Of a stretch of 64,000 bases of DNA, positions 516 through 19,137 are shown in pieces (the first letter of the stretch is position 1; every line of letters starts with the position of its first letter). The notes beneath the pieces were generated by a model. That model did not search any database and had not been told where the DNA came from. It saw nothing but the letters and a program-made list of their open reading frames with translations. Both the position numbers and the translations under genes were made by a program. The DNA comes from Halorussus vallis. GTDB lineage: Archaea; Halobacteriota; Halobacteria; Halobacteriales; Haladaptataceae. The stretch covers positions 1,798,001 to 1,862,000 of the forward strand of contig NZ_CP100000.1 of NCBI RefSeq assembly GCF_024138165.1. The letters run 5' to 3'.

Positions 516-1352
516 ATGGGGACACCCCGACTGGAGTTCGAAAGCGACGTCGAAAGTCGCATCTACCGCTACGTCGAGCGCCGCGGTGCCGCCACCCGCG
601 AGGAGGTCCGGGACGCGGTCCGCATCGAGGAAACCGACGGGGCCAAACCGCCCCGGTCGGGCACCGAATCCGCGGCCAGGCTCTCGGTCGCCGACTTCAA
701 CGAGTACATCGACGAACTGCTCGGCTCGGGACCGCTGACCGAGCGCGACGGGAAACTATACGTCTCGCCCGACGCCGAACCCGCGACCCACGAGACGGAC
801 GGGTTCGAGTACACCGTCCGGCCGGCCGACGAGTCCGACCGCGACGAGGTCGCCGAACTCATCCGCGAGATCGCCGCCGAGGGCGCCATCGTCGTCGACG
901 AGCGGGTGGCCGACGCTATCGAACGCGACGACGCGCTGGTCCGACTCAACGAGCGCGAGTCCCGGATGGTGTTCGTCGCCGAAATCGCGGGCGAGGACGC
1001 GGACAGTGAAAGCGAGGGGAGCGACGAGGGCGACGACGCCGACCGCGAGATAATCGGCTGGGTCCACGTCCAGGGATTCGAACTCCCGGCCCGGGACCAC
1101 ACCGCCGAACTCACGGTCGGCGTCGCGCCGGAGTACCGCGAGCGCGGCGTCGGCGGGACGCTGCTCGAACGCGGCGTGGCGTGGGCCGACGAGGAGGAGT
1201 GTCTCAAGGTCTACCAGAGCCTCCCGGCGACCAACGAGGATGCGCTGGAACTGCTCGACGAGTACGGCTGGGAGCGCGAGGCGACCCGCGCCGACCACTA
1301 CAACGTCGACGGCGACCTCGTCGACGAAGTCCAGATGGCGAAGCGACTTTAG
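516..1352 (+). CDS. GNAT-family N-acetyltransferase with N-terminal winged-helix-like region
   Basis: A 278-residue protein. Residues of about 1-90 resemble a small helix-turn-helix module (YRYVERRGAATREEVRDAV). Residues of about 100-278 form a GNAT fold with the acetyl-CoA loop RERGVGG after the strand ELTVGVAPEY. An acidic stretch of about 20 residues interrupts the GNAT domain (DADSESEGSDEGDDAD). The ATG at 516 is preferred over an in-frame TTG at 486 because homology-like sequence begins there. The substrate cannot be told. It starts about 60 nt after arcS and could share its transcript. Confidence 0.8.
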   Translation: MGTPRLEFESDVESRIYRYVERRGAATREEVRDAVRIEETDGAKPPRSGTESAARLSVADFNEYIDELLGSGPLTERDGKLYVSPDAEPATHETDGFEYTVRPADESDRDEVAELIREIAAEGAIVVDERVADAIERDDALVRLNERESRMVFVAEIAGEDADSESEGSDEGDDADREIIGWVHVQGFELPARDHTAELTVGVAPEYRERGVGGTLLERGVAWADEEECLKVYQSLPATNEDALELLDEYGWEREATRADHYNVDGDLVDEVQMAKRL

Positions 1353-1479
1353 CCGGTTCGGGCGTACACTCCCCGCCGCGACGTTCGATTCGGCTGGAAC
1401 GTTTATCTACAGCGTAGGACGATTCTCGGGTCTTTATCCGCCGAATAAGGAAATATTGGTTCGTCCACCGACTAGTCGC

Positions 1480-3261
1480 ATGTCCAACTACAACCGGCGG
1501 GCGTTCCTGAGCGCTGCTGCCGCGGCGGCAGCGCTCGACGGGACGGGAGTCGTGACGAGTACGGACTCGCAGTCGGGCGCGTCGGCCACGCGCGGGCAGT
1601 TCCAGTTCGACGCGGCCAACACCGGGTACGCGCCGGACCGCGTCGGTCCGAAGCGATATCTTGCCCAGCAGTGGAAATTCGAAGGGTCGTGGGCCGGCGT
1701 CCGCGGTGCCCCCGCCGTCGTCGACGGGACGATATACCTCGCCATGGTCCAGAGCGACATCCAGTCGGGGAAGGGAGCCGCCTACGCCGTCGACGCCGAG
1801 ACGGGGCGACCGCGTTGGAAGACGGAACTGACCGGGATGGCGCGTTCGGCGGCGGCCGTCGCCGACGGCACCGTCTACGTCGGCGACGAGCGAAACGTCC
1901 ACGCGCTCGACGCAGACACGGGGGACGTCCAGTGGTCGGTCGACCACGGCACGACCACGTCACCGACAGTCTCCGGCGACGCGGTGTACGTCAGCACCGA
2001 AGACGGGGTCTACGCGCTCGACGCGGGCGACGGGAGCGTCCGGTGGGGATACCGAACTGACGGCGGCTACGCCGACGAGAGCGTCGCGTCGACGCCAGCG
2101 GTGGCGGACGGCATCGTCTTCGTCGCCGACCGGGAGGGTCGGGTCGTCGCGCTCGACGCGGAGACGGGGTCCGAACGCTGGCGAAGGTCCGTCGGGTCGG
2201 TCTCGACACCGACGGTCGGAGACGGCACCGTCTACGTCGGAACCAACGTGCTGACCGCGCTGAACGCCGAGACGGGCAAGAGCCGGTGGCGAGTCGAAAT
2301 CGGCGACGGGTCGCCGCGCGTCGACCTGCACGGTTCCATCGCGGTCGCCGACGGGACGGTCTACCACGCCGACGGTGACCTCCGCGCGCTCGACGCGAAG
2401 ACGGGCGAGGCTCTGTGGACGTTCGACCACGAAGGGGTTTCGCTGCGGTCACCTCCGACCGTCGCCGACGGCACCGTCTACGTCGCCACGAGTCACGGCG
2501 GACTGCTCGCGTTCGATGTCGAAGACGGGTCGCTGTCGGGGCAGTTACTGCAGGTCGAAGCCGCAGACGGCGGATGGGCCGCCGTCACGGTAGCCGACGG
2601 ACGGGCATACCTCGGAACGTACAGCATCACGTCTGGCGGGGCGCTCCACGCGGTCGGCGAAGACGAGTCCGAGTGGGAGGCCGGTCCGGCCCTCTCGCCG
2701 GAGACGTACCCGAAAGAGCCGAGGAAGGGCGAACCGGTGACGTTCTGGGCCAACGCGCAGGCCAACGAGGGCATCACGGTCGTCGACCGAATCGTCGAGT
2801 ACCGCTGGGACTTCGGCGCCGGCGGCGAAGTCGACCGCACGACCGACTCCGGCGAGGTCGAACACGCCTTCGAGGAGGCGGGGACACACGAGGTCCGCGT
2901 CACCGTCGAGGACTCGTTCGGCTGGACGGCGAGCGAAACCGTGACCGTCGATGTCCGGGACGCCGAACACTCCCCGCCGACGGCGCGCATCGAGACGACG
3001 CCCGCCGACGCCGAGGAGCGGACGCTCCCGGCGGGCGCGACAGTGGAACTCGACGCATCGAGTTCCACTGTCGCCGAGGGAGAAATCACCAAATTCGAGT
3101 GGGACACCGGCGGGAGCAGCGCCGACTTCGAGCGAACCGGGCGGCGAATCGAGGTCGAGTTCGAGGACGCCTGCGGCACCCAGACCCGCGAGGTCGTCCT
3201 CCGGGTCACCGACGGGGACGGCGAAACCGACACCGCGACGATACGACTCCGGACGGAGTGA
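1480..3261 (+). CDS. Tat-exported PQQ-like beta-propeller protein with two PKD domains
   Basis: A 593-residue secreted protein. The N-terminus has a twin-arginine signal (NRRAFLSAAAAAAAL). Residues of about 40-400 carry repeated blades of the type VADGTVYVG...ALDAETG..RW, the PQQ-like/WD40-like outer-membrane-type propeller. Residues of about 410-490 and 495-590 are two PKD-like beta-sandwich domains (YRWDFGAGG, FEWDTGG). The ATG at 1480 directly precedes the signal peptide. PQQ-ligand residues of true quinoprotein dehydrogenases are not evident, so a binding or scaffold role at the cell surface is more likely than catalysis. The family is expanded in haloarchaea, and a second member lies at 16.5 kb. 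Confidence 0.85.
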   Translation: MSNYNRRAFLSAAAAAAALDGTGVVTSTDSQSGASATRGQFQFDAANTGYAPDRVGPKRYLAQQWKFEGSWAGVRGAPAVVDGTIYLAMVQSDIQSGKGAAYAVDAETGRPRWKTELTGMARSAAAVADGTVYVGDERNVHALDADTGDVQWSVDHGTTTSPTVSGDAVYVSTEDGVYALDAGDGSVRWGYRTDGGYADESVASTPAVADGIVFVADREGRVVALDAETGSERWRRSVGSVSTPTVGDGTVYVGTNVLTALNAETGKSRWRVEIGDGSPRVDLHGSIAVADGTVYHADGDLRALDAKTGEALWTFDHEGVSLRSPPTVADGTVYVATSHGGLLAFDVEDGSLSGQLLQVEAADGGWAAVTVADGRAYLGTYSITSGGALHAVGEDESEWEAGPALSPETYPKEPRKGEPVTFWANAQANEGITVVDRIVEYRWDFGAGGEVDRTTDSGEVEHAFEEAGTHEVRVTVEDSFGWTASETVTVDVRDAEHSPPTARIETTPADAEERTLPAGATVELDASSSTVAEGEITKFEWDTGGSSADFERTGRRIEVEFEDACGTQTREVVLRVTDGDGETDTATIRLRTE

Positions 3262-7770: not shown

Positions 7771-9237
7771 CTACTCGGTCGCGCGGGGCGCCGTGGCGAC
7801 GTTGGTGAACTCGAAGCGCGCGCCGCCCGCCTCGCTCTCGTCCACTCGACAGTCCCACTCGTACACGTCGGCCAGTTCGCGGACGAACGCCAGTCCGAGT
7901 CCGGTTCCGCCGTTCCCGGCGGCGGTCGTGTAGCCCGCCTCGAAGACGGTTTCGCGGTTCTCGGCCGGGATACCGCACCCGTCGTCTTCGACGTAGAACC
8001 CCGTCGGGAGTTCGCCGACTGATATCGCCGCGTCGTCGCCGCCGTGCTCGACGGCGTTCTCGAAGAGGTTCGCGAACAGGTGCTGGACGTACGTCTCGTC
8101 GGCCTGTATCTCGGCGTCGATATCGACCGACAGCGACGCGTCTGGCGGGCCCACGTCGTCCCACGCCGCCAGCGCCACGTCGGCGAGCGACACCGGCGAA
8201 CCCTCCGAGACGGCCTCCCGGCCCCGCGTGACGACCAACATCACGTCGATCATGTCCTCGATACGGTCGAACGCATCGGCGACGTACTCGACCGCCTCGG
8301 GTGCGGTGTCCCTCGGCAGTTGCTCGCTGTATATCTGGCCGATGGTGACGGGGTTGCGCAGTTCGTGGGCGAGCATGCTCGCGAAACTGTCCAGTTGGTC
8401 GTTCTGTCGTTCGAGGCGGCGCTCGCGTTCGACCCGTTCGGTGACGTCCCGAACGAGGCCGATCTCCTCGTACCCGCCGTCCCCGTCCGGAAGGGTAGCG
8501 AATGAGGCCTCGGCCCGCACCCGCTCGCCGTCGGCGGTCAGGAGGTCGGCCTCCAACTTGGCCGTCTCCTCGCCGGCCATCAGTTCCTCGACGGAGCCTT
8601 TCGCCATCTGGATGGTTTCCTCGTCGACGACCTGCGAGGCGTGCTCGCCGACGAGGTTCTCGCGGTCGTAGCCGGTCATCTCGGCGTACGCGTCGTTGAC
8701 CAGCGTGAAGTAGCCGTCCTCGTCCTTGACGTAGATGCCGTCGTTGACCGTCTCGACGATGGTCTGGTAGCGTTCGAGTTTCCGATTCGAGCGTTCGAGT
8801 TGCCGCCGGGCGCGGTCGGCTTCCCGGCCGCGTTCCTCGGCGTTTCTCGCGCGGGTCTGCGCCGTCGCGTTCTGGTACCCCGTGCCGAGGCCGGCGAGAC
8901 AGGCCAGCGACGTCAACAGGAGGACGTTCTGGACGACGTTGTCGAGGTCGGCGAGCAGGCCGACCAGGAGGAGGACGCCCAGCATCGCGCCGATGCCGGC
9001 GAGACACCACCCGGCGACCGTCGAGAAGTGTTCGGGCCGAATCTCCGTCCGCGGGAGCCAGTACGCCACGCCGAGCACGACGAGACTCGAACCCCCCACC
9101 AGGACGCCGACGACTTCGACGTGGCCGGGCGGCACCTCGCCGGGGACCGCGAACGGCCAGCCGACGGCTGCCACGAGGTAGATGCAGCCGAGCGCGAAGA
9201 CGACGCGTCGCCCGCCCAGCCTCGAAATCGGCGACAT
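7771..9237 (-). CDS. Membrane sensor histidine kinase with PAS domain
   Basis: A 488-residue kinase. Four hydrophobic helices occupy residues of about 10-120, followed by a coiled linker (RARRQLERSNRKLERYQ) and a PAS domain (IVETVNDGIYVKDEDGYFTLVN). The HisKA box FASMLAHELRNPVTIGQ holds the phosphorylated His, and the HATPase has N box NLFENAVEH, DDGCGIP and GTGLGLAF. No receiver domain is fused, and no response regulator is adjacent. The short receiver protein at 51.8 kb is a distant possibility. It shares its kinase core with the 52.4-kb kinase. The signal sensed is unknown. Confidence 0.9.
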   Translation of the reverse strand: MSPISRLGGRRVVFALGCIYLVAAVGWPFAVPGEVPPGHVEVVGVLVGGSSLVVLGVAYWLPRTEIRPEHFSTVAGWCLAGIGAMLGVLLLVGLLADLDNVVQNVLLLTSLACLAGLGTGYQNATAQTRARNAEERGREADRARRQLERSNRKLERYQTIVETVNDGIYVKDEDGYFTLVNDAYAEMTGYDRENLVGEHASQVVDEETIQMAKGSVEELMAGEETAKLEADLLTADGERVRAEASFATLPDGDGGYEEIGLVRDVTERVERERRLERQNDQLDSFASMLAHELRNPVTIGQIYSEQLPRDTAPEAVEYVADAFDRIEDMIDVMLVVTRGREAVSEGSPVSLADVALAAWDDVGPPDASLSVDIDAEIQADETYVQHLFANLFENAVEHGGDDAAISVGELPTGFYVEDDGCGIPAENRETVFEAGYTTAAGNGGTGLGLAFVRELADVYEWDCRVDESEAGGARFEFTNVATAPRATE

Positions 9238-9382: not shown

Positions 9383-10213
9383 TCAGGGTGACGCGGGGTC
9401 GACGTCGCGTTCGCGACGTCGGCCGTTACCGTTCGACAGCAGTACCTCGGCCACCTGCGCGTCGCACTCCGTGCAGACCGCGGTAAGGACGTCCTTCGGC
9501 GGCTGACAGCAGGACTCGACCCGCCGTTCGGTCTTCGAGAGCGACCCGCCGCAGGCCGGACACTCCCGACGGAGCGCCCGCAGTCGGGCGAGCGCCTCGA
9601 CGCGCTGGTCGACGCTCCAGGACCCCTCGGTCCACGCCGGACAGCGCTCCCGCAGTTCGCGGCCCGCGGCGACGTCGGCGAGCAGCGCCGCGTCCGACTC
9701 CCACTGGACGATGCGCTCGCCGTCGACGAGGTATCCGCGATTCCCGACGGCCGACGCGGCGTCGACGACGAAGAGTTCGGCGACCGCCTCGGCGTCGACA
9801 GTCTGTCCGTCGCGGAGCGCGCGAATCCGGTCGTTCCACGCCGAGCGGAACGGCGGGGCGAGTCGCCGGTCGTCCGACGCCGACCGCTCGACGACGCCGC
9901 AACTACCGAGGAAGCCGTCATCCTCGGGCGGCGATTCGAGGCCGTCTTCCGCCGGCACCTTGCCGAACAATCGAAGAACTCGATTCGGAAGATACCGGGC
10001 GGTCAGCGTTGGCGTCCCGGGCACGAGGTAGCCCCGGAGGTAGACGACGAGCGCCGCGGCGGCGAATGCGAGCGCGCCCGCCGCGGGCGTGCCGACGACG
10101 GCGAGGCCGGCGCTCAGCGCGGCCGCGACGGCCAGATTCACTGCGGTACACGGAAGGCACCGATTTTCGCCCGTGTACTCCGGTCGACGGAGCGTCTCCC
10201 CGATCCGTCGCAT
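9383..10213 (-). CDS. Membrane protein with C-terminal zinc-ribbon
   Basis: A 276-residue haloarchaeal protein of unknown function. An N-terminal motif TGENRCLPCTAVNL precedes two hydrophobic helices (AVAAALSAGLAVVG, ALAFAAAALVVYL). A soluble alpha/beta domain follows, then a C-terminal zinc-ribbon-like cluster (CPACGG, a CC pair, then CTEC). The start at ATG 10213 is chosen because upstream in-frame sequence is not protein-like. It is divergent from the quinoprotein operon, which lies across a 266-nt promoter region. Confidence 0.7.
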   Translation of the reverse strand: MRRIGETLRRPEYTGENRCLPCTAVNLAVAAALSAGLAVVGTPAAGALAFAAAALVVYLRGYLVPGTPTLTARYLPNRVLRLFGKVPAEDGLESPPEDDGFLGSCGVVERSASDDRRLAPPFRSAWNDRIRALRDGQTVDAEAVAELFVVDAASAVGNRGYLVDGERIVQWESDAALLADVAAGRELRERCPAWTEGSWSVDQRVEALARLRALRRECPACGGSLSKTERRVESCCQPPKDVLTAVCTECDAQVAEVLLSNGNGRRRERDVDPASP

Positions 10214-10385
10214 GCGTCGGAGGTTCGACGGCGTCCGACGGGAAATAACTACCCGTGGGTCGGGTCGCTCGACGGGGGTAGCGGGGAAATCAACCGCGTT
10301 CGAGCCGAGCGCGGCGTTTCGCGTCGTCCAAGCGTAGTGATTGGTTTTTCGTGAGACGGTTACGCACGATTCGATTACGTCGTCC

Positions 10386-10412
10386 CGGTACGTACCGTTA
10401 CATAATGATAAA
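10386..10412 (+). promoter_or_regulatory. Palindrome and AT-rich promoter ahead of quinoprotein operon
   Basis: CGGTACGTACCG at 10386-10397 is a perfect 12-bp palindrome. It abuts an AT-rich stretch (TTACATAATGATAAAATG) that looks like a TATA region, about 70-80 nt before the ATG at 10480. An operator next to the promoter is the natural reading, but the regulator is unknown. Confidence 0.45.
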
Positions 10413-10479
10413 ATGTTAACCTGTCGTGCTGTATGGGGAGAGTTAGCAAGCAACACTCTCGGCAGGGAGAAGGTACAAC

Positions 10480-11382
10480 ATGACATACCGAACGCCCGAA
10501 ATCGACTCGGAGGAACGACGGCGGTTCCTCAAGGTGTTGGGGGCGACGAGCGCGGTCGCCGCGGGGACCGAACTCACGGTCGACGAACTCCGGAACGCGA
10601 TGGAGGCGGGAACGGAAGCCGAGTTGGCCGCGATGGGGCAGGCAATCCGGAGCGACCTGACCGGACGGCTCGACCCCGGCCTCCTCGGAACGGAGTTGGC
10701 GAACGTCGCGGCGAGCGCCGAGCGACTGCCCGAACTCCGCGCCGCCGGCATCCCAGCGAGGGACAGTACGACGTACCGTGAACTGGCCGAACCCGTCCGC
10801 CGGGTGTACGAGCACCTCGGCGCGGTCGGGTTCTTCGAGAGCGCCGAGACGCACCTCCCGGCGTTCACCGAGGACCACATCGAATCGACCGCCCGAGAAC
10901 TCGTACGGGCCGAACCGCTGACGGCGCTGCTCTCGGAGGCCGGCTTCGACGAGAAGGAGAAGACGCTGTTGGTGGCCAACGTCGCCAACAGGCGCGAGCG
11001 ACTCGCGCTGTGGGTACCGACCAAGGACATCCCCGAAGAGGTCGAGTACGACCTCGAACACGTTGCGCCGCTCCACCAGCGCGCGCTCGGCGGCGCGATG
11101 CTGTGGATAGAGGACCTCGACGACCACCTCTGGCAGAAGGAGTACCTCATCACCGACCGACTGCTCGACGAGGGGTTCTGGGACCTGAAGGTGATGCTCG
11201 GCGGGGCGCAACTGCTGACGAAGGCCGCCCACGACGTCGCGGGCGCGGCCGAACTCACCGACAGTCAGTTGACGGCGGCGCTGACCGCCGGCACCGCGAG
11301 CGCGATACTCGGCCAGGAGGACCTGACCGACGACATGCACAGAATCACCGACGACGTGCGAGCACCCTCGGAGGTGCGATAA
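10480..11382 (+). CDS. Tat-signal protein encoded with quinoprotein dehydrogenase
   Basis: A 300-residue protein with a twin-arginine motif (EERRRFLKVLGATSAVAAG) and no lipobox. The rest is acidic and mainly helical (LDPGLLGTELANVAASAERL, KTLLVANVANRRERLALWV). I do not recognise a named family. Its layout resembles small Tat-bearing partner subunits of periplasmic dehydrogenases, such as gluconate dehydrogenase subunit 3. The next gene starts 2 nt after the stop and its dehydrogenase product has no signal peptide, so this protein may carry it through the Tat pore. That role is inferred from context. Confidence 0.75.
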   Translation: MTYRTPEIDSEERRRFLKVLGATSAVAAGTELTVDELRNAMEAGTEAELAAMGQAIRSDLTGRLDPGLLGTELANVAASAERLPELRAAGIPARDSTTYRELAEPVRRVYEHLGAVGFFESAETHLPAFTEDHIESTARELVRAEPLTALLSEAGFDEKEKTLLVANVANRRERLALWVPTKDIPEEVEYDLEHVAPLHQRALGGAMLWIEDLDDHLWQKEYLITDRLLDEGFWDLKVMLGGAQLLTKAAHDVAGAAELTDSQLTAALTAGTASAILGQEDLTDDMHRITDDVRAPSEVR

Positions 11383-11384
11383 CG

Positions 11385-13133
11385 ATGTCGACAGACCTGA
11401 GCAACGACCCGGCCGTCCAGGCCGCCAAGGAGATAGAACTGAAGGAGGTGGACGACGGCTACACGCTGGTCAACACGCCCGAGAAGTCGGTTTCCCACCA
11501 GTACGCCAACGTCCAGGACATCCCGGAGAAGGACGTCACCCAGCAGATGCTGTCGAACTCGGGGCAGAACCCCGAGGCGTGGCTGATGTACGGCGGCGAC
11601 TACACACAGAAGCGCCACAGCACCGCCGACGTCATCACCAAGGAGAACGTCTCGAACCTCAGCATCGAGTATCTGGTCCAGACGGGCGTCTCCTCCAGCA
11701 TGGAGGGGACGCCGCTGGTCGTGCCGGGCGACCCGCCGGTGATGTACCAGACCAACGGGCCGAACCACGCGAAGGCGCTCAACGCCAGGACCGGCGACGT
11801 GCTGTGGTCGTACACCTACTCGAACCCGACCGACGTCCACGGCAATCAGCCGGCGGAAGAGCGACTGTTGCTCTGCTGTGACGCCAACAACCGCGGGTTC
11901 GCCATCCTCGGCGACAAGGTGTTCATGACCACGCTCGACTCGGGGATGGTGGCGCTCGACCGCTACACCGGCGAACAGCAGTGGTACACCTCGACGGCCA
12001 ACTACGAGGTCGGCTACTCGGCGACGTGGGCGCCGGTCATCTACGACGGGCTGTTGCTGACCGGGAGCGCGGGCGGCGAGTACGGCGTCCGGGGCTTCCT
12101 CGCGGCGCTCGACCCCGAGAACGGCGACATCGTCTGGCGACGGTGGACCACGCCGAAGGACCGGTGGGTCGGCACCAGCTACGAGCAGGGCTGCGCAACG
12201 AGCTGGATGACCCCGACCATCGACGAGAAGCGCGACGTGATGTACGCGCCGGTCGGCAACCCCGGACCCGACTTCGACGGCGCGGTCCGGCCCGGCCCGA
12301 ACGCCTTCACCTGCGGGACGGTGTCGGTGGACATCGCGTCCGGCGACGTCAACTGGAACTTCCAGGAGAGCCCCCACGACACGTGGGACTACGACTCCAT
12401 CGCGCCGCGCATCCTGCTGCGCGACAAGGAGGTCCGCGGTCAGACCCGCGACGTGGTGGTCAACCCCGGCAAGACGGGGTGGAACTACACGACCGACGCC
12501 GAAACCGGCAAACTGCTGGTGCGGAGCCAACCGACGGTCCAGCACCTCAACATGTGGGAGATGGTGCCCCACGTCGACAGCGACGAGAGCATCTCGTACG
12601 TGCCCGGCCCGCAGGGCGGCAACGACTGGCAGCCGCCGTCCTACAGCCCGCAGACCGGGCTAGTCTACCTCAAACAGCAGAACACGCCGGTCGAGATGTG
12701 GTGGGACCACGCCGAGTACGAACCCGGCACCGCCTACTTCGGCGGCACCTTCGACGACTGGCCCCACGTCGACACCCCGGAGGGCTGGAACGGTCACACC
12801 AGCGCCATCATCGCGGTGAACCCGCTCACCGGCGAGCGGGTCTGGCGCGAGTGGATAGACGACCCCAACTACCTCTGGGGCGGGTCGATGACGACCGCGA
12901 CCGGATTGATGTTCCTGGGCACCCAGAAGGGGAAGTTCATCGCCTACGACGGCGAAACTGGCGAGCACCTCTGGGAGTCGCCCCACCTCGGCGCGCCCAT
13001 CAGTTCCTCGCCGATGAGCTGGTACGACCCCGGCACCCAGAAGCAGTACGTCGCCGTGCAAGTCGGCGGAAGCGGCTGGCTGCGACACGGCCCGCGCGGA
13101 AGCACGGTCGCCGTGTTCGCGCTCAAGAAGTGA
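11385..13133 (+). CDS. PQQ-dependent alcohol dehydrogenase, lanthanide-type active site
   Basis: A 582-residue eight-bladed quinoprotein of the methanol/ethanol dehydrogenase family. W-motifs recur (LNARTGDVLW, LDPENGDIVW, VNPLTGERVW). Family ligands are present: the vicinal disulfide Cys164-Cys165, Glu232 in GGEYGVRG, Asn292 in GNPGP and catalytic Asp335 in HDTWDYDS. Asp337, two residues later, sits where calcium enzymes have Ala or Ser and lanthanide enzymes (XoxF, ExaF/PedH) have Asp. No signal peptide is visible at the N-terminus (MSTDLSNDPAVQAAKE). Neighbours are a Tat-signal protein upstream and a cupredoxin downstream. Substrate and true cofactor are inferred; no PQQ synthesis genes are in the window. 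Confidence 0.88.
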   Translation: MSTDLSNDPAVQAAKEIELKEVDDGYTLVNTPEKSVSHQYANVQDIPEKDVTQQMLSNSGQNPEAWLMYGGDYTQKRHSTADVITKENVSNLSIEYLVQTGVSSSMEGTPLVVPGDPPVMYQTNGPNHAKALNARTGDVLWSYTYSNPTDVHGNQPAEERLLLCCDANNRGFAILGDKVFMTTLDSGMVALDRYTGEQQWYTSTANYEVGYSATWAPVIYDGLLLTGSAGGEYGVRGFLAALDPENGDIVWRRWTTPKDRWVGTSYEQGCATSWMTPTIDEKRDVMYAPVGNPGPDFDGAVRPGPNAFTCGTVSVDIASGDVNWNFQESPHDTWDYDSIAPRILLRDKEVRGQTRDVVVNPGKTGWNYTTDAETGKLLVRSQPTVQHLNMWEMVPHVDSDESISYVPGPQGGNDWQPPSYSPQTGLVYLKQQNTPVEMWWDHAEYEPGTAYFGGTFDDWPHVDTPEGWNGHTSAIIAVNPLTGERVWREWIDDPNYLWGGSMTTATGLMFLGTQKGKFIAYDGETGEHLWESPHLGAPISSSPMSWYDPGTQKQYVAVQVGGSGWLRHGPRGSTVAVFALKK

Positions 13134-13163
13134 ACTCGAACCAAGACACAGGAGAACACGACT

Positions 13164-14297
13164 ATGTCACACGACTTCACGCGGCGGGCGTTCCTCTCGG
13201 CGGCCTCGGGCGCGGGTGCGGTGGCGTTCGGCGTCGGCGCGACGGGCGCCGAACAGTCGCCGACCTACTCGCTCGCGCTGACCCGGGACGGCTGGGTCGG
13301 ACGGTCGCCGTCGGAGATTCGGGGCCAGAACGCCCCGACGCTCAACCTCGACCCCGGACAGCGAGTCACGGTCGAGTGGACGAACAGGACGAACGAGATA
13401 CACAACTTCGTCGTCACGAAGCGGTACCCCGGCGGGAACGCGCTGTTCCGGTCGGACTACGTCGCGTCGGGCGACAGCCAGACGGTCACCTTCCAGGCGC
13501 AGGAGGGGCTGGCGGCGTACTACTGCGAGAACCACCTCGAGGAGAAGGGCGACATCGTGGTCGGCCAGGGGCAGGCCACGGCCACCCAAACGGCGACGGT
13601 CGAGGACCGCAACCTCACGCAAGCCGCCTCCCAACCCGTCCAGACGTTCCGGTTCGCGGGGTCGACGACGGGATGGCAGGCGCTCGCACCTTCCTCGATA
13701 GCGGGTCAGACGAACCCGACCCTCAGGCTAGTGCCCGGACGGCTCTACGGGGTCGAGTGGATAAACGCCGACGGCGCGCCCCACAACTGGGAGATGGAGA
13801 ACGACCAGGACGAGACGCTCGTCCGTTCGGACGTGATCGCCCGCAGCGGCGCGCGACAGACGGTCAGGTTCGTCGCGACCGAGGACATGTCGGTGTACTA
13901 CTGTCAGTACCACCCGATCGGTATGCGCGGGCAGGTACAGACGGTGAGCGAGGAGGAGGTCACCCAGCGGACGACCGCGCAGGGCCGGAAGACGACGGCC
14001 GCCAACCGCACCGGCGCCCAGCCGACGACTGACTCGGAGTTCCAGCACGCCACCGTCGCTCGCGACATCGGTCAGGAGAACGCGACCCGGACGACGACCG
14101 CCGGAAACCGGACGACGACGCCCGGCAACGGGACTGCCGGCGGAAATAACCGGGGCGACCGCGCGAACGGCGGCGTCGACGCCGAGGACGTCGTCCAAAC
14201 GGCGAGAGCGCCGGGTTTCGGTCCGCTCGCGGCGCTCGGGGGAATCGCCGGCGCGGCGGGCTACCTGCTGTCCGGGGCGGACGACGACGAGGAGTAG
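13164..14297 (+). CDS. Tat-exported two-domain cupredoxin, likely electron acceptor of the quinoprotein
   Basis: A 377-residue protein with the Tat signal TRRAFLSAASGAGAVAFG. Two plastocyanin-like domains follow. Domain 1 has His in IHNFVV and Cys/His in YYCENH. Domain 2 has His in PHNWEM and Cys-His-Met in YYCQYHPIGM. Domain 1 lacks the Met of the CxxHxxxM pattern, so its copper site may differ. A Thr/Asn-rich linker leads to a C-terminal APGFGPLAALGGIAGAAGY helix resembling PGF-CTERM, but it ends in acidic DDDEE rather than basic residues. Starting 30 nt after the dehydrogenase, it probably replaces the cytochrome c used by bacterial homologues. Confidence 0.85.
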   Translation: MSHDFTRRAFLSAASGAGAVAFGVGATGAEQSPTYSLALTRDGWVGRSPSEIRGQNAPTLNLDPGQRVTVEWTNRTNEIHNFVVTKRYPGGNALFRSDYVASGDSQTVTFQAQEGLAAYYCENHLEEKGDIVVGQGQATATQTATVEDRNLTQAASQPVQTFRFAGSTTGWQALAPSSIAGQTNPTLRLVPGRLYGVEWINADGAPHNWEMENDQDETLVRSDVIARSGARQTVRFVATEDMSVYYCQYHPIGMRGQVQTVSEEEVTQRTTAQGRKTTAANRTGAQPTTDSEFQHATVARDIGQENATRTTTAGNRTTTPGNGTAGGNNRGDRANGGVDAEDVVQTARAPGFGPLAALGGIAGAAGYLLSGADDDEE

Positions 14298-14397: not shown

Positions 14398-16323
14398 TCA
14401 GTCGTCGCCGGAGGCCGCCGCGCCGCCGGAACTGACGCCCGTGCCCGGCCCGACGTCGATGCCGAGTTCGTCGAGCTTCTCGTCGGGCACCACGCCGTCC
14501 TCCCAGCCGCGGACCTCGTAGTACTCGTCTTTGAGCTGGTCGAGTTCGACGAGCGAGCCCTCCGAACCGCCCTGTCCGGGGATGGCCTTCTCGTGGCCCT
14601 CGACGAACCGGACCGGCAGGTCGTCGTCGCTCCCGTCGAAGCCGACGAGGTTGTTGTAGTAGCGTTCGAGGTTGTAGATGCGCTCGCCCGCCTCCAGCAG
14701 TTCGTCCTCCGAGAGGTCGAGGCCGGTCATGCCGTTGTACTGCATGACGTACTCCTCGATGCCCTCCGCGAAGGCGTTGAACTTGCAGATGTCGAAGGAG
14801 TCGCTGATGGCGTGGAGATCCTGGAAGGTCGCGCAGAGTTCGCCCTTCCCCTCGGCCTCGTGGGGGTCGACCTTCTCGGGGATGCCGAGCAGTTCGGCCG
14901 CCGGCGTGTAGCCCCGGAGGTGGCAGGCGCCGCGGTTCGAGGTGGCGTAGCCGATGGCCATCCCCTTCATCGCCCGCGGGTCGTAGGCCGCCATCGTCTG
15001 GCCCTTCACGTCGAGGCTCATGTCGGGGTCGCCGAGCTCCTCGGCGGCCCGCATCGCGCCCTCCGCCAGCAGGTCGGCCAGGTCGTCCTCGCGGTTGGCG
15101 ACGCGCTCGATCATCTCGATCATGGTGTCGGCGTCGCCCCAGTCGAGGCCCTCGTCGAGGTGGCCGGCCTCGGTCGCCTCCATCGCCATCGCCATCGTGT
15201 TACCCATGTCGATGGTGTCGAGGCCCATGTCGTTGCACCGGTCGATCATCATCGCGATCTTGTCGCGGTCGTCGGTGGCGGAGTTCGGGCCGAGCGCCCA
15301 CGCCGACTCGTACTCGTAGGACTCCATCCGGACGTTGTGGTCCTCGCCCTTGTGGTGGACGTCGACCTCGACCTCCTTCTTGCAGGCGACCGGGCAGGAG
15401 TGGCAGGTCGGCTCGTCGACCAGGATGTTCTCCCGGACGTTCTCGCCCGAGACGTTCTCGGCGTCGATGTCGGGGTCCTCGTCTGCCGAGTAGCTACTCG
15501 TGGACGTGTAGCGGGCGTTCTTGGTCGGCAGACCGTCCATCTCGTTGGTGACGTTCATCAGGACGTTCGTGCCGAACAGCGACAGGCCGCCCTCGTTGGG
15601 CGCGGTCACGTCGGACTCCTGGATGACCCGCATCGCCTGCTTGTGGCCCTGCTGGAACGTCTCGGGGTCGGCCGGCTTGGGCATCCTCGTCGAGGACTTG
15701 ACGACGACCGCCTTGAGGTTCTTCGACCCCATCACCGCGCCGGTGCCGCCCCGGCCCGACGCACGGTCGTCCTCGTTCATGATGCAGGCGTACCGGACCT
15801 GGTTCTCGCCGCCCGGCCCGATGGCCATCACCGAGAGGTTCTTGCCGAACTGGCCGTCTATCTCGTCTTCGAGTTCGCTCATCGCGTCGTGGACGCCCCA
15901 GCCCCACATGTGGGAGGCGTCCCGGAGTTCGACCTCGCCGTCCTCGACGACGGCGTAGACGGGGTCCTCGGCCTTCCCCTCGAACAGCAGGCCGTCGAAG
16001 CCCGACCACTTCAGGCGCGCGCCCGACCAACCGCCGTGGTGGCTGTCGGTGACGGTGTTCGTGAGCGGCGACTTCGTGACGACCGCGATGCGGCCGCTCA
16101 TCACGGTCTGGGTCCCCGTCAGCGGGCCGTTCATGAACGCCAGCAGGTTGTCCGGGCCGAGCGGGTCGACGTCGGTCCCGTTGTCGAAGACGTACTTTAC
16201 CCCCAGTCCCCGCGCGCCGATGTACTTGCGAGCGTCCTCGTCGTCGATGCCCTCGTAGTCGACCGCCCCCTCCGTCAGGTCGACGCGGGCGACGTGGTTC
16301 TGGAATCCACCTAGTTCGGTCAT
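14398..16323 (-). CDS. aor: Tungsten-type aldehyde:ferredoxin oxidoreductase
   Basis: A 641-residue AOR-family enzyme, which oxidises aldehydes to carboxylic acids with a tungsto-bispterin and a 4Fe-4S cluster, passing electrons to ferredoxin. The cluster cysteines are visible as CHSCPVAC plus a later Cys in DSFDICKFN, matching the four Cys of Pyrococcus AOR. Other family marks are YIGARGLGVKYVFD, GPLTGT, SHHGGWSGARLKWSGFD and ASGRGGTGAVMGSKNLKAVVV. It is cytoplasmic (no signal). It converges on the quinoprotein operon, so the two could act in sequence on alcohol and aldehyde. The Wtp transporter at 45-48 kb may supply tungsten. Confidence 0.92.
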   Translation of the reverse strand: MTELGGFQNHVARVDLTEGAVDYEGIDDEDARKYIGARGLGVKYVFDNGTDVDPLGPDNLLAFMNGPLTGTQTVMSGRIAVVTKSPLTNTVTDSHHGGWSGARLKWSGFDGLLFEGKAEDPVYAVVEDGEVELRDASHMWGWGVHDAMSELEDEIDGQFGKNLSVMAIGPGGENQVRYACIMNEDDRASGRGGTGAVMGSKNLKAVVVKSSTRMPKPADPETFQQGHKQAMRVIQESDVTAPNEGGLSLFGTNVLMNVTNEMDGLPTKNARYTSTSSYSADEDPDIDAENVSGENVRENILVDEPTCHSCPVACKKEVEVDVHHKGEDHNVRMESYEYESAWALGPNSATDDRDKIAMMIDRCNDMGLDTIDMGNTMAMAMEATEAGHLDEGLDWGDADTMIEMIERVANREDDLADLLAEGAMRAAEELGDPDMSLDVKGQTMAAYDPRAMKGMAIGYATSNRGACHLRGYTPAAELLGIPEKVDPHEAEGKGELCATFQDLHAISDSFDICKFNAFAEGIEEYVMQYNGMTGLDLSEDELLEAGERIYNLERYYNNLVGFDGSDDDLPVRFVEGHEKAIPGQGGSEGSLVELDQLKDEYYEVRGWEDGVVPDEKLDELGIDVGPGTGVSSGGAAASGDD

Positions 16324-16516: not shown

Positions 16517-18985
16517 TCAGTTTCCGCGCTCGAAGGCGTAGACTCGACCGTCCGCGTCGCCGACGTAGACGCCGGTGTCGTCGACCGCGGGCGTCCCGTA
16601 GAGACAGCCGAACGTCTCGTACCGAGCCGTCTCGGAGCCGTCGGCCGCGTCGAGCGCGTAGATTCGCCGGTCGTCGGAGGCGACGTAGACCGACCCGCCG
16701 GCGACCGCCGGGGCGCTGACGGACTGGCCGGTCCGCATGAAGTGCGGGAGGTCGTCGGCGAGGTCGAAGCGCCACCGCTTCGACCCGTCGGCCGCGTCGT
16801 ACGCGAGCAGTTCGCCGTCCGAACCGGCCTCCGACCCGCCGATGGACTGGCCGGCGTCGTAGACGCCGACGGCGTACACCGCTCCGTCGGCCGCGACGAG
16901 CGAGTCGACGGCGTTCGAGTCGTCCGAGAGCGGGGCGCGCCAGCGCTCGGTCCCGTCGGCCGAGCGAGCGACGAGCGCGCCGTCGCCCGCCGACTCGCCG
17001 ACGTAGAGGGTGCTGTCGGCGGCCGCCAGCGCCGAGGTCGACTCCCCGACGGTCGCCCGGCGTTCGCCGGTTTCGCCGTCGAGAATCCAGACGCAGTTCT
17101 CGGTCGGGACGTAGACCGCGCCGTCCATCGCGACCACCGAACCGGTGATCACGTCGTCGATACGCTCCTCGTCGGGCGAGGACCGGTAGACCCACCGGCG
17201 CTCGCCCGTCTTCGCGTCGAGCGCGGTGACCGCCGAGTCGGTCTCGGCCGCGTCCTCGTTCGCGAAGTAGACCGCGCCGCCGGCGACCGCCGGTCGGCCG
17301 ACGCCGTCGGCCACGCGGGTCCGCCACCGCTTGTCGCCGGTTTCGGCGTCGAACGCGTACATCGTCCACGGCGACTCGGCGCGCTCGCCGACGCCGTAGT
17401 AGACTGTGCCGTCGGCGACGACCGGCCGGTAGCTCATCGGCCCCTCGTAGCCGGTCGGCGCGTGCTTCCACTTCACCTCGCCGGACTCCGCGTCGAACGC
17501 CCGGAGGACGCCCTCGAAGTCGACCACGTAGGCGACGCCGTCGGCGACAGTCGCGTCGGTCCGGGTACCTGCGGTCACGTCGGCCCGCCAGCGCGCGGCC
17601 GACTCGCCCGAGATGGCGTAGACGTAGCCCGCCCGGCCGGAGACGAACACCGCGCCGTCGAGGACCGCGACGCTGCTCGGCGAGGCGTAGGGCTGGGGCG
17701 CCCGCAGGGGGACCCGCCAGCGCTCGGTCCCGTCGGACGGGTCGAGTTCCACGACCGACTCGGGTTCGGACTGGTCTTCGCTCAGGGTCGTGCAGTAGAC
17801 CGCGTCGCTCCCGGCAGATATCGACCGGCCGAGGCCGTCGACCTTCCACTCGATGGACCCGTCTTCGGCGTTCGCGGCCCAGATCAGTTCGGGGACGTAG
17901 ACCCGACCGTGGGCGACGGTCGGCGGGCGCGCGAGGCGCTTGGGTTCGAGGTCGGTCCGCCAGCGGACCGACGACCCGGCGACGTCGACCGCGAGCAGTT
18001 GGGCCGTGAGCCCCGAGAAGTCGCCCGAGTCCGTGCGAGTTTCGTAATAGTGGCCGGTGAGGTAGACCGTCCCATCGTCGACCGCGGGCGCCGAGAGCCG
18101 GGGGTTGTGGGTGTCGTCGCCAAAGACGTCGACGCGGCTCTCGGTCGTGCCGTCGGCGGCGTTCAGGCGGAACAGCGTCCCGTGGTCGACCGCGTAGACC
18201 GAGCCGTCGCCGACCGCCAGCGAGAACGGCGTCGAGCGGTAGCGGGTTCCCACCGTCCCGCTCCCGGAGAGTTCGGTCTTCCAGGTCCGGTCGCCGGACG
18301 CGGCGTCGAGCGCGTAGGCGAACCGCCGGTCGTCGCCGCCCAAGATCATCGTCACGTAGGCCGCGTCGCCGTCGACCGTCACGGCCGACGACTGGTCGGT
18401 TTCGTCGGTGGGGGCCGACCCGCAGGAGTCGCCGCTCGCGGCGTCGTTGCGCTCGGGGGCCGTGAACGTCCACTTTCGAGCGCCGTCGCCCGCTCCGAGC
18501 GCGTAGACGTGCGGGCCGGTGGCGACGAAGACGGTGTCGCCCTCGACGGTCACCGGACCGACGTCGGAAACCGAGCCGAGTTCCGTCTGCCACTCGACGG
18601 ACCCGGACGCGACGTCGAGCGCGCTGACGGTGCCGCCGTCGTCGAAGGTGTACGCGGTGCCGTCGGCGACGACCGGCGAGGCGAGGTCGGGTTCCCGGTC
18701 GTCGCAGACCTTCGTGCTCCAGTCGATCCACGGCGTCGACGCGACGCCGCGCGCGTCGGGATTCGCGCCGGTGTTGCGGGCGTCGCTGTGGTAGGTCGTC
18801 CACGCGCCGCCGACGGAGGGGGAGTCGGCGGGCGACCGGTCGACGGTCTGCGGGTCGCTCCGGGCCGCGCGCTCGGGGGCCGCGTCGGCCGACGTCCCGG
18901 TGCCGACGCCGGCGAGGGTCGCCGCGCCGAGCGAGAGACCGACAGTCTTCAGGAGGGTGCGCCGTTGGGCGTGTGGCTCGTTCAT
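16517..18985 (-). CDS. Large Tat-exported PQQ-like beta-propeller protein
   Basis: An 822-residue secreted protein. The twin-arginine signal HAQRRTLLKTVGLSLGAA is followed by about a dozen or more repeats of the kind VADGTVYVG...ALDAASGD.RW across the whole length, probably two propellers. Active-site residues of quinoprotein dehydrogenases (vicinal Cys pair, WDYD) are absent, so it is likely structural or ligand-binding. ATG 18985 is preferred over an in-frame ATG at 19030 because a TATA-like TTTATTAT (read on the other strand) lies about 28-35 nt upstream of it. It is related to the 1.5-kb propeller but lacks PKD domains. Confidence 0.85.
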   Translation of the reverse strand: MNEPHAQRRTLLKTVGLSLGAATLAGVGTGTSADAAPERAARSDPQTVDRSPADSPSVGGAWTTYHSDARNTGANPDARGVASTPWIDWSTKVCDDREPDLASPVVADGTAYTFDDGGTVSALDVASGSVEWQTELGSVSDVGPVTVEGDTVFVATGPHVYALGAGDGARKWTFTAPERNDAASGDSCGSAPTDETDQSSAVTVDGDAAYVTMILGGDDRRFAYALDAASGDRTWKTELSGSGTVGTRYRSTPFSLAVGDGSVYAVDHGTLFRLNAADGTTESRVDVFGDDTHNPRLSAPAVDDGTVYLTGHYYETRTDSGDFSGLTAQLLAVDVAGSSVRWRTDLEPKRLARPPTVAHGRVYVPELIWAANAEDGSIEWKVDGLGRSISAGSDAVYCTTLSEDQSEPESVVELDPSDGTERWRVPLRAPQPYASPSSVAVLDGAVFVSGRAGYVYAISGESAARWRADVTAGTRTDATVADGVAYVVDFEGVLRAFDAESGEVKWKHAPTGYEGPMSYRPVVADGTVYYGVGERAESPWTMYAFDAETGDKRWRTRVADGVGRPAVAGGAVYFANEDAAETDSAVTALDAKTGERRWVYRSSPDEERIDDVITGSVVAMDGAVYVPTENCVWILDGETGERRATVGESTSALAAADSTLYVGESAGDGALVARSADGTERWRAPLSDDSNAVDSLVAADGAVYAVGVYDAGQSIGGSEAGSDGELLAYDAADGSKRWRFDLADDLPHFMRTGQSVSAPAVAGGSVYVASDDRRIYALDAADGSETARYETFGCLYGTPAVDDTGVYVGDADGRVYAFERGN

Positions 18986-19012
18986 CCACGCGGCTTTTCG
19001 ATGCACGACAAG

Positions 19013-19020
19013 TTTATTAT
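19013..19020 (-). promoter_or_regulatory. TATA-like box of the 16.5-19.0 kb propeller gene
   Basis: On the minus strand ATAATAAA at 19020-19013 stands 28-35 nt before ATG 18985. This supports that start over the ATG at 19030. Confidence 0.5.
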
Positions 19021-19137
19021 CGGGAGGCAAAACTGTGTCAGAAAATCGGACGAACCGCTTATGGACCGGCTAGACGTTCCATCTCGGCGGAACGTCCATC
19101 GCAACACCTTTCCTCGTCATGGCGCAACCGGCTACCG

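Follow-up and report, generated by a model that had tools for sequence, protein, structure and literature searches.

A unit of three co-directional genes lies at positions 10480-14297 of the 64,000-nucleotide stretch of the Halorussus vallis genome analysed here (the window; NCBI RefSeq assembly GCF_024138165.1, contig NZ_CP100000.1, positions 1,798,001 to 1,862,000). All three genes are on the plus strand and encode a helical protein, here called G1, a dehydrogenase (DH) of the pyrroloquinoline quinone (PQQ) dehydrogenase family, and a copper protein; the ATG of DH is two bases past the G1 stop codon. The initial annotation of this DNA had described DH as a PQQ alcohol dehydrogenase with a lanthanide-type active site; its observation is confirmed by the present analysis and its interpretation is partly supported. 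The genes of the unit and the sites discussed below, with their conservation among the 64 haloarchaeal relatives, are the following:

10480-11382, plus strand: G1, 300 amino acids (aa), all-helical partner protein without a known family
10516-10533, plus strand: Tat-like (twin-arginine translocation) motif RRRFLK of G1, residues 13-18; 25 of 64 relatives have it or a similar variant
11385-13133, plus strand: DH, PQQ-dehydrogenase-family enzyme, 582 aa, from family profiles, PDB alignments and predicted structure
11874-11879, plus strand: vicinal Cys164-Cys165 of DH; kept in 46 of 64 relatives
12078-12080, plus strand: Glu232 of DH, metal ligand column; Glu in 56 of 64 relatives, Asp in 6, Tyr in 2
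12204-12206, plus strand: Trp274 of DH, PQQ-stacking column; 64 of 64
12258-12260, plus strand: Asn292 of DH, metal ligand column; 64 of 64
12387-12395, plus strand: Asp335-Tyr336-Asp337 of DH, catalytic Asp and lanthanide-column Asp; both Asp in 64 of 64
13164-14297, plus strand: copper protein with two cupredoxin domains, 377 aa, from Pfam matches

DH is a beta-propeller of the PQQ-dehydrogenase family. It matches Pfam family PF01011 (E 4.8e-56) with 191.1 bits, above the gathering score of 26.7, and among PDB sequences it recovers 26 PQQ dehydrogenases, headed by XoxF (6dam and 4mae) and PedH (6zcv). Residues C164-C165, E232, N292, D335 and D337 align with the Cys pair, Glu, Asn and D-x-D of XoxF and PedH, which bears out the Cys pair, metal-binding Glu and Asn, and catalytic Asp named in the initial annotation. 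The extra Asp that it had taken as the mark of a lanthanide enzyme also stands: D337 shares its column with the last Asp of WDYD in XoxF and of WDFD in PedH. In the same sequence alignment this column holds Thr in the calcium enzyme 1kb0, a quinohemoprotein alcohol dehydrogenase that shares the fold of DH and has Lys at the K363 position, but that differs from it in this Thr and in a fused cytochrome c domain. An AlphaFold2 model of DH (predicted local distance difference test, pLDDT, 88.9; predicted template modelling score, pTM, 0.92) superposes best on PedH 6zcw (Z 47.2, 505 residues, 1.7 Å), followed by PedH 6zcv, XoxF 6dam and the quinoprotein ethanol dehydrogenase 1flg. Lanthanide and calcium enzymes differ little in Z; the structure ranking alone therefore does not decide on the metal, and the D-x-D column carries the argument. 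PedH of Pseudomonas putida and XoxF (structures 6zcw, 6dam and 4mae) have the same eight-bladed propeller, Cys pair, Glu, Asn and D-x-D, at about 31-33% identity and root-mean-square deviations of 1.7-1.9 Å over about 505 residues. Unlike them, the haloarchaeal enzyme forms a separate clade, lacks a signal peptide, is obligately accompanied by G1, is paired with a copper protein instead of cytochrome c, and resides in a host without pqqC.

Strong relatives of DH (E below 1e-15) were found in 70 of 391 Halobacteria genomes, all other matches being weak and short. Conservation was counted in 64 haloarchaeal loci picked by overall similarity and not by motif; R170, W274, N292, D335, D337 and K363 are invariant in all of them, a conservation far beyond chance. 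In a tree that combined these 64 enzymes with 75 from bacteria and four references from the PDB (quick method, midpoint root, bacterial set drawn by sequence patterns that include D-x-D), all haloarchaeal DHs form one clade with a Shimodaira-Hasegawa-like approximate likelihood ratio (SH-aLRT) support of 100, which includes neither XoxF and PedH nor any of the bacterial enzymes sampled. XoxF2/5 fall with the bacterial enzymes, the reference enzymes being only four. The haloarchaeal DHs are enzymes of a known kind that make up a new clade. H. vallis encodes two more paralogues, which share 53% and 37% identity with DH. A literature search of partial coverage found no paper describing this haloarchaeal family. 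The rarity in archaea that had been claimed for such enzymes is nevertheless overstated, given the 70 haloarchaeal genomes and the PQQ dehydrogenases with DYD and DXD that were published in 2020 from heterotrophic marine Thaumarchaeota, with a blue copper protein as proposed acceptor (PMC7300363). Compared by description only, the thaumarchaeal enzymes resemble DH in being archaeal, in their D-x-D and in the proposed acceptor, but they lack the Cys pair, most have signal peptides, and a PQQ synthase is attributed to their hosts, in contrast to H. vallis with no pqqC (PMC7300363).

G1 is the obligate partner of DH. A script placed it immediately upstream of DH in 63 of the 64 loci, and it is present in the 64th as well, where the DH open reading frame was called over-long and overlaps it; the gap between the two genes ranges from about -3 to +26 bases where the starts are resolved. 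G1 and DH occur in the identical 70 of 391 genomes and neither occurs in the other 321 (Fisher p 3e-79, kinship not corrected). In one genome (G193, C1:1281353-1282338) decayed fragments of G1 and DH lie side by side, a joint loss of the two genes. No G1 was detected in the flanks of about 70 bacterial DH relatives, and a phylum-wide sample, whose non-Halobacteria share is not stated, matched G1 in Halobacteria only. The protein has no Pfam or NCBIfam match and is annotated as 'hypothetical protein' in plasmid records. Its AlphaFold2 model (pLDDT 90.4, pTM 0.90) is all helical, with a short helix at residues 10-20. A profile search against PDB sequences gave no match and Foldseek no clear PDB match (best E 0.16); the best match of a fold search by VIA, to acyl-CoA dehydrogenase helices (Z 6.3), may represent a mere common arrangement of helices in the model. 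The absence of a clear PDB match is no proof of a new fold. The obligate G1, and a perfectly kept PQQ site set against a missing PQQ pathway, are the most original points of the system.

The copper protein encoded downstream of DH contains PF13473 at residues 59-133 and PF00127 at residues 197-259 (E 3.4e-12). H-C-H motifs are found at 80/121-124 and 207/247-250, and the complete His-Cys-His-Met ligand set of a type 1 site is present in the second cupredoxin domain only. The N-terminus carries the Tat start RRAFLS, and the protein is predicted to be exported with its two cupredoxin domains. No cytochrome c gene lies within the unit, and the view that it carries a copper protein instead of a cytochrome c partner is supported. 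Cupredoxin genes adjoin DH in many other loci, both among its closest relatives and in several further branches, and four loci, L003 (1456-3552), L055, L056 and L057, encode a DH paralogue with an N-terminally fused cupredoxin domain; these fusions come from four genomes of one genus, H. vallis included. A 2Fe-2S ferredoxin gene is found near DH in nine loci (L070-L075, L077, L084 and L087), only in a subclade without Tat-type G1 and without a cupredoxin neighbour; cupredoxin and ferredoxin neighbours never co-occur. The copper protein is likely the electron acceptor of DH.

A profile search detected no pqqC in the H. vallis genome, and across the 391 genomes of the class no match rose above the cut-off, the strongest stray one having E 7e-4; as a control, the PqqC model recovered the gene from 7 of 8 bacterial genomes, against 0 of 7 named haloarchaea that have DH. 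The PqqE and PqqB models gave only weak, sub-cut-off matches of a kind that unrelated genomes also give, and these were rejected as evidence for PQQ synthesis. With pqqC absent, DH would depend either on scavenged PQQ or on a different cofactor; bacteria that use PQQ without making it are common (PMC12124388), which makes scavenging the simplest reading for haloarchaea. In 22 of 51 neighbourhoods DH lies close to NMT1/THI5-type ABC transporter genes, whose products are candidate importers of PQQ or of the substrate. Either compound may be sensed by proteins that combine a helix-turn-helix (HTH)-like N-terminus with a ligand-binding domain of the NMT1/SsuA type; their genes (L061, 2743-4023; L063, 9119-10396; L066, 3500-4867; L077, 336-1583; L081, 3499-4782) mostly diverge from G1-DH and lie close to an ABC transporter. 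The absent pqqC, the signal-less DH, the obligate G1 and the two paralogues, one of them cupredoxin-fused, had all been missed in the earlier reading.

We propose that the unit would encode a respiratory alcohol or aldehyde dehydrogenase that belongs to the PQQ methanol/ethanol dehydrogenase family and, within it, to a clade specific to haloarchaea. DH would bind PQQ and a metal in a XoxF/PedH-type site made up of E232, N292, D335 and D337, which could probably take a lanthanide, Ca2+ or Mg2+ being possible as well. The haloarchaeon, having no known PQQ route, would take the cofactor from outside; G1, with its Tat-like start in this lineage, would most likely carry the folded, signal-less DH across the membrane; and electrons would pass from DH to the Tat-exported two-domain copper protein. 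Taken as a whole, this combination of a PQQ dehydrogenase, a G1 carrier, a copper acceptor and scavenged PQQ has in our estimate an even chance of being correct. An extracytoplasmic lanthanide-PQQ alcohol chain, in which a G1 of new fold exports DH, the copper protein is reduced on the membrane side and PQQ comes from neighbours, is rather unlikely in its entirety.

The role of G1 can be weighed from the distribution of its motif. RRxFLK or a close variant occurs in 25 of the 64 G1 proteins, including all three copies in the H. vallis genome, and, judged by eye on the tree, the deepest haloarchaeal branches have it and two subclades are without it. The Pfam TAT_signal model matches H. vallis G1 weakly (E 0.052) and is weak in other members of the G1 family too, where the best E is 0.00035. 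None of the 64 DHs has the N-terminal hydrophobic stretch of a signal peptide, and a Tat-like start on G1 next to a signal-less DH suggests co-export. In Tat hitch-hiker complexes, such as the flavin adenine dinucleotide (FAD)-dependent gluconate and fructose dehydrogenases, the small subunit carries a Tat signal and the catalytic subunit has none. A G1-DH complex would resemble them in both respects, and the motif distribution would fit an ancestral hitch-hiker role of G1, which, unlike the small subunits of those complexes, belongs to no Pfam family and has no clear match to a solved fold. G1 might instead be a structural subunit, or a chaperone devoted to folding or to loading the cofactor, with an RRxFLK helix that is no signal. 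This is a serious alternative with a chance a little below even: G1 is always retained although 39 of 64 members lack the motif, and its model offers only the short helix at residues 10-20, while the occurrence of the motif across deep branches, the TAT_signal match at E 0.00035 in one member and the exported copper partner argue for a carrier. The motif-less members indicate that G1 is not only a Tat carrier, so that it has another function too or some of the complexes are cytoplasmic.

Together with these 39 G1 proteins, several findings weigh against the proposed mechanism. At 391.5 bits DH stays below the curated cut-off of TIGR03075 (480.05), still the best of all NCBIfam models (TIGR03074 gave 135 bits, against 391), and is therefore a divergent relative, by NCBI's rule outside the subfamily. 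The known route of PQQ synthesis was not found, which leaves PQQ use by DH unproven, and a search for TIGR03863, the ABC binding protein associated with PQQ dehydrogenases, scored above the cut-off in Bradyrhizobium and Hyphomicrobium but in none of 10 haloarchaea. D-x-D is no proof of lanthanide use, since the membrane glucose dehydrogenase (mGDH) of Escherichia coli carries it and can complex Ca, Mg, Zn and Sr (PMC11996626, in which the essential Asp of Good et al. 2020 is summarised). Lanthanide use by DH is accordingly a prediction, to which we give somewhat better than even prospects. The same enzyme and module might instead work in the cell with Ca2+ or Mg2+, the second Asp being merely tolerated as in mGDH. 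The metal range of mGDH and the missing ABC binding protein favour this, as does a gene of the Na/Ca exchanger family near DH in L043 (3461-4678) and ten other loci (11 of 51 neighbourhoods), which may bear on the metal question; the invariance of D-x-D in 64 of 64 relatives and the lanthanide enzymes as nearest structures speak against it, and its chance is modest, clearly short of even. That the propeller no longer uses PQQ and is an 'empty' or other-cofactor quinoprotein, as in the NCBIfam model name for an acidobacterial group, would agree with the lack of pqqC in the class and with the match to TIGR04528 (acido-empty-quinoprotein; 285 bits, though under the cut-off of 650), but is improbable, because the residues that contact PQQ and metal are invariant, TIGR03075 outscores TIGR04528, and bacterial PQQ users without synthesis are common (PMC12124388). 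Oxidation of methanol within a C1 pathway to CO2 is more improbable still: in 7 loci the neighbourhood includes a formate-dehydrogenase-like gene (scoring above the TIGR01591 cut-off), and in 5 an aldehyde ferredoxin oxidoreductase (AOR) gene, but that formate dehydrogenase family is present in 287 of 391 haloarchaea and has no member in the H. vallis genome at E 1e-150. Methanol was dropped as a general explanation because this neighbour is unspecific and missing from H. vallis at that threshold.

The proposed PQQ dehydrogenase also resembles mGDH in the scavenging of PQQ, which is known for the E. coli enzyme (PMC11996626, PMC12124388) and proposed for DH; mGDH differs in its membrane domain and belongs to a different subfamily. 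If the proposed mechanism is correct, it would extend rare-earth biochemistry to haloarchaea, imply PQQ cross-feeding in brines, let copper proteins stand in for cytochrome c in a PQQ respiratory chain, and identify the uncharacterised G1 family as an obligate component of a class of enzymes. Each of these points is testable in haloarchaea with genetic systems.

Two genes adjoin the unit:

14398-16323, minus strand: AOR (PF01314/PF02730), convergent neighbour of the unit
9383-10486, minus strand: divergent gene without a Pfam family, with a hydrophobic stretch; near DH in 13 other loci

An AOR gene is also found near DH in four further loci (L067, L074, L075 and L087), and this recurrence, with its position next to the unit, makes a route from alcohol through aldehyde to acid plausible, in which AOR is possibly the next step after DH. 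The listed start of the divergent gene overlaps G1, and its true start is probably further inside. Near G1, a CDC48-like AAA ATPase is encoded in L069 (2599-4761) and in nine other loci, divergently where checked, and is possibly analogous to the MoxR of methanol dehydrogenase activation. Also close to the unit, positions 7771-9237 of the window encode a PAS-domain histidine kinase with an archaeal four-transmembrane (4TM) region, and an 837-aa multi-repeat propeller protein of the PQQ_2/BamB-like type is encoded near the unit at 16517-19030, with a similar protein at 1240-3261.

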